Position numbers and translations under genes: made by a program. From an uncultured Pelagibacteraceae bacterium (GTDB lineage Bacteria; Pseudomonadota; Alphaproteobacteria; Pelagibacterales; Pelagibacteraceae), in the NCBI GenBank assembly GCA_902537905.1, contig CACBDD010000002.1, forward strand, positions 1-60,447: a stretch of 60,447 nucleotides of DNA, in the 5' to 3' direction. Of the stretch, positions 32,231 through 58,837 are shown piece after piece (position 1 is the stretch's first letter; every line of letters starts with the position of its first letter). Under the pieces are notes generated by a model. That model searched no databases and was not told the DNA's origin. It worked only from the letters and a program-made list of their open reading frames with translations.

Positions 32231-32322
32231 GGAGAGATGGGTGAGAGGCTGAAACCAGTCGTTTGCTAAATGACCGTGCGAGGAAACTTGTACCGAGGGT
32301 TCGAATCCCTCTCTCTCCGCCA
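32231..32322 (+). tRNA. tRNA-Ser(GCU), CCA encoded
   Basis: GGAGAGA...TCTCTCC acceptor; GTCGT-TTGCTAA-ATGAC anticodon arm (anticodon GCT); long variable arm; GGTTCGAATCC T-arm. Confidence 0.95.
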
Positions 32323-56839: not shown

Positions 56840-58168
56840 TTAACTAACCGCTTTTAAATTATCTTTTGATGATTTGTCTAAAGCTTGATCTAAGTCATCA
56901 ATGATATCATCAATATGTTCTAAACCAATACAAAGTCTAACATAACCAGGAGTTACGCCAGAGGCAGCTAATTCATCCTCATTTAATTGACTATGTGTAG
57001 TTGTTGCAGGATGAATTGCCAAACTTCTAGCATCTCCTATATTTGCAACATGGTAGAACATTTTTAAAGATTCAATGAACTTTTTACCAGCTTCAATACC
57101 ACCAGCTAATTCAATACCAACCAAAGCACCATTTCCATTTTTAAGATATTTTTTTGCTCGACTTGATATTTCTTCATTATGTTCAGTAGCATAAATAACT
57201 CTCTCAACAGCTTTATGATTTTTCAAGTACTTTACTACTTTAGCAGCATTGTCACAATGCTGCTTCATTCTTAAAGCAACTGTTTCAAGTCCCTGTATAA
57301 CACCAAAAGCATTATCTGGAGAAAGTGCTGATCCCAAATCTCTTAACAAGGTTACTCTTGCTCTTACTGCAAAAGCAACATTTGCTCCTGTTAATTCAGG
57401 TACAGCTTTACCCCAAACAACACTTCCATAACTTGCATCAGGTTCATTAAACAATGGTTGTCTTTTCGGATCTGCTGTCCAATCAAAATTACCACCATCA
57501 ATTAGCGCACCCCCGACTACTGTTCCATGACCTGCTATATATTTTGTTAAAGAATAAACAACTACAGCAGCACCATGTTCGATTGGTTTACAAATTACAG
57601 GGGCAGCAGTGTTATCCAAGATTAATGGAATGTTATATTTTTTACCAATATCTGAGACTTCTTTAATTGGAAAAACTCTTAAATATGGATTTGGTAACGT
57701 CTCTCCATAAAAAGCTCTAGTTTTATCATCTATAACTTTTTCAAAGTTTTTCGGATCAGAAGGATCAGCGTATCTTACTTCTATACCAAGCTTACTTAAA
57801 GTATGTGTAAACAATGAAACTGTTCCACCATAAAGATCTGTTGAACTAATAATATTATCTCCAGCTTGAGCAACGTTTAATATGGCAAAAGTGGAAGCAG
57901 TTTGTCCAGATGCTACAGTTAAACTCGCAAGACCACCTTCAAGAGCAGCGATTCTTTTTTCCAACACATCATTTGTTGGATTCATTATTCTTGTATAGAT
58001 ATTTCCAAACTCTTTTAATGCAAATAAATTAGCCGCATGTTCAGTGTTGTTAAATTGATATGAAGTTGTTCTATAAATAGGAACTGCAACTGAATTTGTA
58101 GCTGGATCACTTCTATAATCTCCACCATGTATGGCAATAGTTTCTGGATTATTTCTCTTTGTACTCAT
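56840..58168 (-). CDS. metY: O-acetylhomoserine aminocarboxypropyltransferase
   Basis: Cys/Met metabolism PLP enzyme; YSLTKYIAGHGTVVGGALIDGG. Confidence 0.93.
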   Translation of the reverse strand: MSTKRNNPETIAIHGGDYRSDPATNSVAVPIYRTTSYQFNNTEHAANLFALKEFGNIYTRIMNPTNDVLEKRIAALEGGLASLTVASGQTASTFAILNVAQAGDNIISSTDLYGGTVSLFTHTLSKLGIEVRYADPSDPKNFEKVIDDKTRAFYGETLPNPYLRVFPIKEVSDIGKKYNIPLILDNTAAPVICKPIEHGAAVVVYSLTKYIAGHGTVVGGALIDGGNFDWTADPKRQPLFNEPDASYGSVVWGKAVPELTGANVAFAVRARVTLLRDLGSALSPDNAFGVIQGLETVALRMKQHCDNAAKVVKYLKNHKAVERVIYATEHNEEISSRAKKYLKNGNGALVGIELAGGIEAGKKFIESLKMFYHVANIGDARSLAIHPATTTHSQLNEDELAASGVTPGYVRLCIGLEHIDDIIDDLDQALDKSSKDNLKAVS

Positions 58169-58172
58169 TTTT

Positions 58173-58231
58173 ACTCCTTTTTTAGTGCTTTTGCTTTATG
58201 CAAGGCGCACAATACAGTTCAAATGCCTACC
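58173..58231 (-). ncRNA. SAM-V riboswitch aptamer overlapping the metY ribosome-binding site
   Basis: Minus strand ggtaggcatttgaactgtattgtgcgccttgcataaagcaaaagcactaaaaaaggag; AGGC/GCCU stem, TTGC/GCAA hairpin, GTGC/GCAC pseudoknot, SD AAGGAG in the 3' strand. Confidence 0.82.
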
Positions 58232-58252
58232 GATTTAAATTTTTATGAAATT

Positions 58253-58296
58253 CCATTTTAGCAGTTTTATGCCCGCAATAGGATCAAATCGGCAAT
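58253..58296 (-). ncRNA. SAM-II riboswitch-like aptamer upstream of the SAM-V element
   Basis: Minus strand attgccgatttgatcctattgcgggcataaaactgctaaaatgg; TGCC/GGCA P1, conserved GATTT..TATTGC and GCTAAAA..GG core. Confidence 0.72.
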
Positions 58297-58304
58297 AGTT
58301 TTCT

Positions 58305-58332
58305 AGCATATTAGTTATGTTTTACAAGTTAA
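58305..58332 (-). promoter_or_regulatory. Putative metY promoter: TTAACT-16 nt-TATGCT
   Basis: Just upstream of the riboswitch region on the minus strand. Confidence 0.4.
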
Positions 58333-58340
58333 ATATAAAA

Positions 58341-58368
58341 TTGACTTTGAATAATTTAATAGTATTAA
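58341..58368 (+). promoter_or_regulatory. Putative rplM promoter: TTGACT-16 nt-TATTAA
   Basis: ttgactttgaataatttaatagtattaatcctcgcacaATG; matches rpsM promoter layout. Confidence 0.5.
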
Positions 58369-58378
58369 TCCTCGCACA

Positions 58379-58837
58379 ATGACAAAATTCACAAAAAAAG
58401 ATCAAGTTACATCGTCTTGGTACGAGATAGACGCAAAAAATGCAGTTGTTGGAAGATTAGCTACTGTTGTATCTAATATAATTAGAGGTAAAAACAAGAC
58501 TACATACACACCACATATGGATGATGGTGATTTTGTTGTAGTAAAAAATATCGAACAAGCCAAATTTACTGGTAAGAAATTTCAAAACAAAAAGTACTAT
58601 AGACACACAGGTCACCCTGGTGGAATAAAAGTTACGACTCCAGAAAAACTTCATGAAAAAAAACCTGGAGAAACTTTAAAGATGGCAGTTAAAAGAATGT
58701 TACCAGGTGGAGTTTTAGGAAGAAAACAATTAACAAAACTAAAAATTTACTCTGGAAGTGAGCACCCTCATGCCGCACAAAATCCAAAAGTTATAGAGTT
58801 AGATAAACTAAACAATAAAAACATTGTAAGAAATTAA
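58379..58837 (+). CDS. rplM: 50S ribosomal protein L13
   Basis: SSWYEIDAKNAVVGRLATVVSNIIRGKNKTTYTPHMDDGDFV. Confidence 0.97.
   Translation: MTKFTKKDQVTSSWYEIDAKNAVVGRLATVVSNIIRGKNKTTYTPHMDDGDFVVVKNIEQAKFTGKKFQNKKYYRHTGHPGGIKVTTPEKLHEKKPGETLKMAVKRMLPGGVLGRKQLTKLKIYSGSEHPHAAQNPKVIELDKLNNKNIVRN

Follow-up and report, generated by a model that had tools for sequence, protein, structure and literature searches.

The leader of metY in this Pelagibacteraceae contig probably acts as a two-aptamer SAM riboswitch, in which a SAM-II-class aptamer would undergo SAM-gated strand exchange in series with a downstream SAM-V aptamer. On the minus strand 5' of the gene, two SAM aptamers are packed into 130 nt of the 210 bp intergenic gap (58169-58378) that separates metY (ATG at 58168) from the divergent rplM (58379), all coordinates being those of the window, i.e. 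the whole stretch of 60,447 nucleotides that was analyzed. A first-pass annotation had placed a distal and a proximal SAM-aptamer-like element upstream of metY on this strand and given the gap as 210 bp; both statements agree with our reading of the sequence. Two features were added here to that account, the linker strand UCGGU and the absence of a terminator. The parts of the leader are as follows.

56840..58168, minus strand: metY, O-acetylhomoserine (thiol)-lyase, 442 aa, the controlled gene (open reading frame; start in agreement with HTCC1062 metY).
58171..58237, minus strand: SAM-V riboswitch aptamer (RF01826), its first 9 bases overlapping the anti-P1 strand.
58174..58179, minus strand: Shine-Dalgarno AAGGAG at the 3' end of SAM-V (sequence; P2a/SD occlusion model, PMC6061858).
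58225..58228, minus strand: SAM-V P1 5' strand AGGC, pairing with GCCU 58203-58206 (covariation).
58229..58238, minus strand: anti-P1 strand, UCGGU core 58229-58233 extended to UUAAAUCGGU, abutting SAM-V P1 with zero gap.
58252..58298, minus strand: distal SAM-II-class aptamer with short P1 (models R2 and R3, described below; conserved in relatives).
58271..58273, minus strand: SAM-II P1 3' strand GGC (alignment).
58275..58278, minus strand: SAM-II P2 5' strand UUGC, pairing with GC(U)AA 58258-58262 (invariant in all aligned sequences).
58281..58283, minus strand: SAM-II P2a 5' strand UCC, pairing with GGA 58252-58254 (covariation).
58286..58290, minus strand: GAUUU, the third strand of SAM-II, corresponding to the SAM-contacting U10/U11 in the numbering of PMC11508383 (no variation in alignments A1 and A2).
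58291..58293, minus strand: SAM-II P1 5' strand GCC, pairing with GGC 58271-58273 (covariation).
58305..58310, minus strand: putative -10 hexamer TATGCT (read from sequence).

On sequence grounds, the identity of 58171-58237 as a SAM-V aptamer is unambiguous. RF01826 (gathering score 41) gave it 83.0 bits, with E 3.2e-12 over the whole window, in line with the earlier proposal of a SAM-V element at this place. It contains the P1/P2 pseudoknot, with pseudoknot strands GUGC 58210-58207 and GCAC 58188-58185, and a 3'-terminal Shine-Dalgarno sequence close to ATG 58168; the AAGGAG ribosome-binding site that had been read within the element indeed lies at its 3' end (58179-58174). P1 covaries, CG being replaced by UA in 15/62 sequences and AU by GC in 3/62. 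Occlusion of the Shine-Dalgarno by P2a is the published SAM-V model (PMC6061858), and SAM binding is known for the metY and bhmT SAM-V aptamers of 'Ca. P. ubique' HTCC1062 (PMC6061858, PMC5069961).

The distal element had been likened to SAM-II, and a search of both elements with the Rfam models had been proposed as the check. By Rfam alone the SAM-V half of the claim would have stood and the SAM-II half would have failed: SAM-II (RF01726) scored 19.0 bits on the distal element (gathering score 44; E 0.55 over all families) and SAM_alpha (RF00521) 15.0 bits (gathering score 36), and in the genome-wide SAM-II search the element ranked second, without significance, a random-looking site scoring 19.5. 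This miss does not discriminate, because bona fide SAR11 SAM-II aptamers upstream of metX and bhmT are missed too; the Rfam SAM-II model also stayed below threshold on a canonical bhmT-type tandem (19 bits, L029) and on metX leaders (L322). As a side observation, RF01726 and RF00521 of Rfam 15 miss every SAR11 SAM-II aptamer tested (L029, L322, L345, L346 and others), and SAM-II is probably under-annotated in public SAR11 genomes. Rfam was accordingly set aside as an uninformative judge of the distal element.

Three models were built instead. R1, made from 76 distal elements, recovered the window element, as expected, and picked up SAM-II upstream of metX in further genera of the family as well. 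R2 was made from 25 metX and bhmT SAM-II aptamers and excludes all metY and mmuM elements; it matched the window at 58298..58252 with 40.7 bits and E 1.2e-9, the runner-up reaching 14.9 bits, and found the distal element in 32/32 relatives, with the mild circularity that its metX members had been gathered using R1. For this reason we built R3 from 17 bhmT aptamers gathered via SAM-V alone. Its top match in the window was again the distal element (18.2 bits, E 0.0067), a score level with those of most metX SAM-II aptamers (range 18.1-29.7 bits; most 18-20, one 29.7). From these model matches we assign the distal element to the SAM-II class, its P1 being unusually short, and we infer that it binds SAM. 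The order proposed earlier for the metY leader, a SAM-II-class aptamer and then SAM-V, is that of the R2 and RF01826 matches.

The alignments reveal both the P1 hairpin and the P2/P2a pseudoknot of SAM-II. P1 measures 3 bp in the window (an optional fourth pair is U58294-A58270), 3-5 bp generally and up to 4-6 bp in some leaders; its outer pair is GC in 59 sequences and AU in 3, and at the pair next outward both sides are changed in 14/62. P2a likewise varies on both sides, UCC:GGA becoming ACC:GGU in other leaders (both sides changed in 5/62), and P2 is invariant. The SAM-contact positions, in GAUUU, UAUUGC and GCUAAA, are invariant across the 76 aligned elements.

The putative -10 hexamer TATGCT would set the transcript start at about 58298, where the distal aptamer begins. 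The region 5' of the aptamer is conserved in 125 metY and 29 mmuM leaders, and the mmuM leaders carry TTTACA and, about 12 nt before the aptamer, a TATAA-type hexamer. A strict promoter scan of the window leader found no promoter; the putative hexamers of metY and mmuM nonetheless point to a transcript whose 5' end lies at the distal aptamer.

Within the genus, SAM-V was found in 184/399 genomes, and the 199 candidate sites collected include a few chance matches of the loose search pattern. The short-P1 SAM-II element stands 5' of SAM-V in 132 metY and 29 mmuM leaders (162 distinct after trimming). Conservation of the distal element extends to well over a hundred relatives within the Pelagibacteraceae, far above chance. 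Among the viral contigs with pattern matches, which were checked for phage copies, there was no SAM-II/SAM-V leader. The gaps and gene starts of one genome in the set (G451) coincide exactly with the coordinates given for HTCC1062, whose gaps lie at 1005679-1005890 (metY), 732778-732938 (mmuM) and 1127293-1127553 (bhmT) (PMC2704228). The metY and mmuM gaps are listed as 'SAM-V' only (PMC2704228, Table 1), and a later report places SAM-II in HTCC1062 only 5' of bhmT and metX, with metY and mmuM again as SAM-V only (PMC5069961). Since R1 matches fall inside both gaps, at 1005760-1005806 (metY) and 732861-732907 (mmuM), these annotations appear incomplete, and the HTCC1062 metY and mmuM leaders carry an upstream SAM-II aptamer missing from both. 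In the same genome the osmC leader (L437, 1126163-1126227, minus strand) is a SAM-V without a SAM-II element upstream.

A SAM-II aptamer 5' of SAM-V is the arrangement of the published 'bi-mechanism' tandem on 'Ca. Pelagibacter ubique' bhmT (PMC9481103, PMC11508383). There an intrinsic terminator follows SAM-II, as it did without exception in the original 120 tandems (PMC9481103). In our set 16 other leaders do have a terminator after SAM-II, and in HTCC1062 bhmT it consists of a hairpin followed by nine Ts. An intrinsic terminator was considered as the expression platform of the distal aptamer and rejected, as none was found within 58050-58450; nor was there a poly-T behind a hairpin in any short-P1 metY or mmuM leader. 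The metY and mmuM type therefore shares with the bhmT tandem a SAM-II-class aptamer 5' of SAM-V, a ribosome-binding site in SAM-V, a methionine-cycle gene, a SAR11 host and a linker that can inactivate SAM-II, but differs in having no terminator after SAM-II, a P1 of 3-5 bp (5-6 bp in bhmT) and a dedicated anti-P1 strand abutting SAM-V P1. The first-pass annotation had treated the tandem class as known; this holds for bhmT, whereas the metY instance is not simply that arrangement, because the published tandem is that of bhmT with a terminator and the metY and mmuM leaders of HTCC1062 were published as SAM-V only.

The linker strand UCGGU (58233-58229) is complementary to GCCGA (58293-58289), which comprises the P1 5' strand of the distal aptamer plus the first two loop bases, and in the window the complementarity reaches 10 bp, between GCCGAUUUGA (58293-58284) and UUAAAUCGGU (58238-58229). 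This conserved helix and the aptamer P1 are mutually exclusive. Among 129 metY leaders, each of the five GCCGA:UCGGY pairs forms in 128, the base opposite G being U in 115 and C in 13, with one exception; the pair types seen are GU/GC/AU and CG/UA. The mmuM leaders attain complementarity through other sequences, with compensatory changes, e.g. UUACCGAUU:AAUUGGUAA in HTCC1062 and GCUGA:UUAGU in L402, where C-G is replaced by U-A; subtypes B and C pair imperfectly. Since the 5' strand hardly varies, anti-P1 covaries through a small number of changes only, which are probably tied to clades, and the pairing evidence is mostly one-sided conservation. This would also be expected if UCGGY were kept for another reason, as part of an extended SAM-V aptamer or as a protein or DNA site, and its complementarity to GCCGA were coincidental. 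We hold that explanation to be very improbable: SAM-V leaders without the short-P1 SAM-II lack UCGGY (bhmT tandems, L035, L406, L411), the position facing G takes only U or C, and the compensatory changes of mmuM argue against it as well.

Folding assigned anti-P1 a probability of 1.00 in the window leader and a mean of 0.96 in metY leaders, against 0.15 with mononucleotide-shuffled linkers; the native/shuffled values for the mmuM subtypes were 0.97/0.17, 0.77/0.08 and 0.84/0.07, and the probability was 0.00 in 16 canonical terminator tandems. The secondary-structure model is pseudoknot-free and ligand-free, so that these values do not weigh the bound SAM-II fold against anti-P1. Dinucleotide-preserving shuffles were rejected as a control because they nearly always regenerate UCGGU, and mononucleotide shuffles were used instead. 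In a duplex test of mmuM subtype B, linkers were no better than shuffles. The predicted anti-P1 fold retains P2a and part of P2, so that in effect P1 is exchanged for anti-P1, with the SAM-contacting third strand sequestered. In the minimum-free-energy fold of the window leader, anti-P1 runs on into SAM-V P1 (pair at position -1), but this extension was discarded, as it is not conserved across leaders.

The predicted dominance of anti-P1 at equilibrium (P ~1.0 for this leader) would also suit a distal domain that is a relic of a SAM-II/terminator tandem, its platform lost and anti-P1 parking it so as to prevent misfolding into SAM-V, and the SAM-II domain of bhmT has been reported inactive in full-length RNA (PMC11508383). 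A relic should decay, however, and the ligand-contact core is invariant in the 76 aligned elements; moreover, P2a, which only the bound fold needs, covaries, and in one genome (L364) the element is also present on mmuM without SAM-V. We therefore consider such a relic distinctly unlikely.

For the metY and mmuM leaders of SAR11 bacteria, a far-reaching version of the proposal, in our view somewhat less likely than not, is that SAM-II acts as a co-transcriptional, SAM-gated strand-exchange switch without a terminator whose displaced or released strand directly sets SAM-V folding, two aptamers for one ligand being coupled physically by branch migration. The reading that we favor as probable for metY is a SAM-gated strand exchange in series with SAM-V. 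In it the SAM-II-class aptamer would stand at the 5' end of the mRNA and SAM-V, with the ribosome-binding site, at the 3' end of the leader. The distal aptamer would be complete some 13-20 nt before UCGGY is transcribed. UCGGY would then nucleate on the single-stranded GAUUU (58286..58290), serving as toehold for the invading linker strand, and displace the weak P1 of 3-5 bp, and the resulting anti-P1 helix would take away the SAM-binding third strand and abut SAM-V P1. Without SAM the exchange would win, whereas an aptamer that has bound SAM in time would resist it, and the presence or absence of anti-P1 on entering the SAM-V stage would thus record the SAM level during transcription. SAM-V would work in its usual mode, SAM binding occluding the Shine-Dalgarno and stopping translation. 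Two SAM-dependent steps in series may give a steeper response, or one spread over two affinities. As a precedent, chemical probing of the full-length bhmT tandem RNA in vitro showed SAM-II to be kept from binding SAM by the linker (PMC11508383).

Coupling to SAM-V is suggested by the position of the anti-P1 strand, which in metY adjoins the covarying SAM-V P1 with zero gap. Folding did not yield the direction of the effect and was set aside for this purpose: with the 5' strand held unpaired, the probability of SAM-V P1 went from 0.55 to 0.33 in metY and from 0.42 to 0.61 in mmuM, so that the two disagree.

Under sulfur limitation, HTCC1062 metY mRNA rises 7.1-fold and its protein 2.2-fold, and mmuM mRNA rises 6.1-fold (PMC5069961). 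Since the mRNAs rise so much, a purely translational switch is not a ready explanation, although the changes could come from translation-dependent mRNA stability. They also bear on another possibility, that the distal aptamer sets the mRNA level, through Rho-dependent termination, polymerase pausing or breakdown of the AU-rich linker by RNase E; UCGGY would then be the strand that switches this output, and any coupling to SAM-V would be incidental. The leaders lack an intrinsic terminator, yet their mRNAs respond (PMC5069961); the linker, of about 20 nt, is rich in A and U; and other genera have related SAM-II aptamers with terminators in the same position (L321, L336). This reading is unlikely in our judgment, if less so than the relic: taken alone, it leaves the zero-gap contact of the switch strand with SAM-V P1 unexplained.

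The separate parts of this leader have counterparts among known systems. The proximal element is the metY SAM-V riboswitch itself (RF01826; 6FZ0, PMC6061858), but the crystallised RNA was the 53 nt aptamer only, without the upstream SAM-II or the anti-P1 strand. Translational SAM-II riboswitches (Sargasso Sea metX, 2QWY; S. meliloti metA, PMC9373788) also have no SAM-dependent terminator and share the core GAUUU..UAUUGC..GCUAAA..GG; their Shine-Dalgarno lies in or next to the aptamer, whereas the distal metY aptamer lies about 75 nt upstream with the whole SAM-V between. With the strand-exchange riboswitches (group 3, PMC10907184) the leader shares a toehold invader that displaces P1 and structures that exclude each other; the metY invading strand, however, ends at a second aptamer instead of a terminator or an anti-Shine-Dalgarno hairpin, and SAM-II and SAM-V are both classed there as direct-occlusion riboswitches. 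Relative to the tandems and annotations cited here, what is new is the arrangement, an unannotated, terminator-less SAM-II-class aptamer separated from SAM-V by a conserved anti-P1 strand. The original description of SAM-V tandems is reportedly the work of Poiata et al. (2009).

SAR11 cells rank among the most numerous in the ocean, and riboswitches are largely how they control methionine synthesis. In the type strain, annotation of the metY and mmuM leaders appears to cover just half of what is there, since Rfam does not see the upstream SAM aptamer; one of these two leaders was the source of the SAM-V crystal structure. The anti-P1 exchange, if real, would be a compact model for how two same-ligand aptamers can be coupled without a terminator, and it may explain both the silencing of SAM-II by the linker in the full-length tandem and the large response of metY mRNA to sulfur limitation.

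Related leaders vary around this layout. In L364 (G046) the mmuM leader has the short-P1 SAM-II without SAM-V and an AUCAAU..AUUGAU hairpin before the start codon. In another genus, the metY leaders L337, L338, L339, L341 and L342 have SAM-II without SAM-V, and a short AGUC..GACU hairpin adjoins the Shine-Dalgarno. A metY leader of another genus (L321, G663) has the order SAM-II, intrinsic terminator, SAM-V, and this version is a useful outgroup for the loss or gain of the terminator. Upstream of metX in other genera of the family (L318, L319, L320, L327), an AAAUCG..CGAUUU hairpin lies directly 3' of SAM-II and before the start codon; its AAAUCG is also complementary to CGAUUU of the aptamer (duplex p 0.01-0.06), and the layout resembles the anti-aptamer scheme of metY, here with translation as its output. 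In other alphaproteobacterial families (L312, L316), a SAM-II-like element, GATTTGATCCTATTGC, lies upstream of a gene whose product, a membrane protein of about 380 aa, begins MKTFYVNARYLIVPVMTIATILG and is possibly a SAM- or methionine-related transporter. Elsewhere in the window, 32231-32319 on the plus strand holds a tRNA gene with a long variable arm and GCU in the anticodon region (Rfam tRNA, 51.5 bits), likely a tRNA-Ser.
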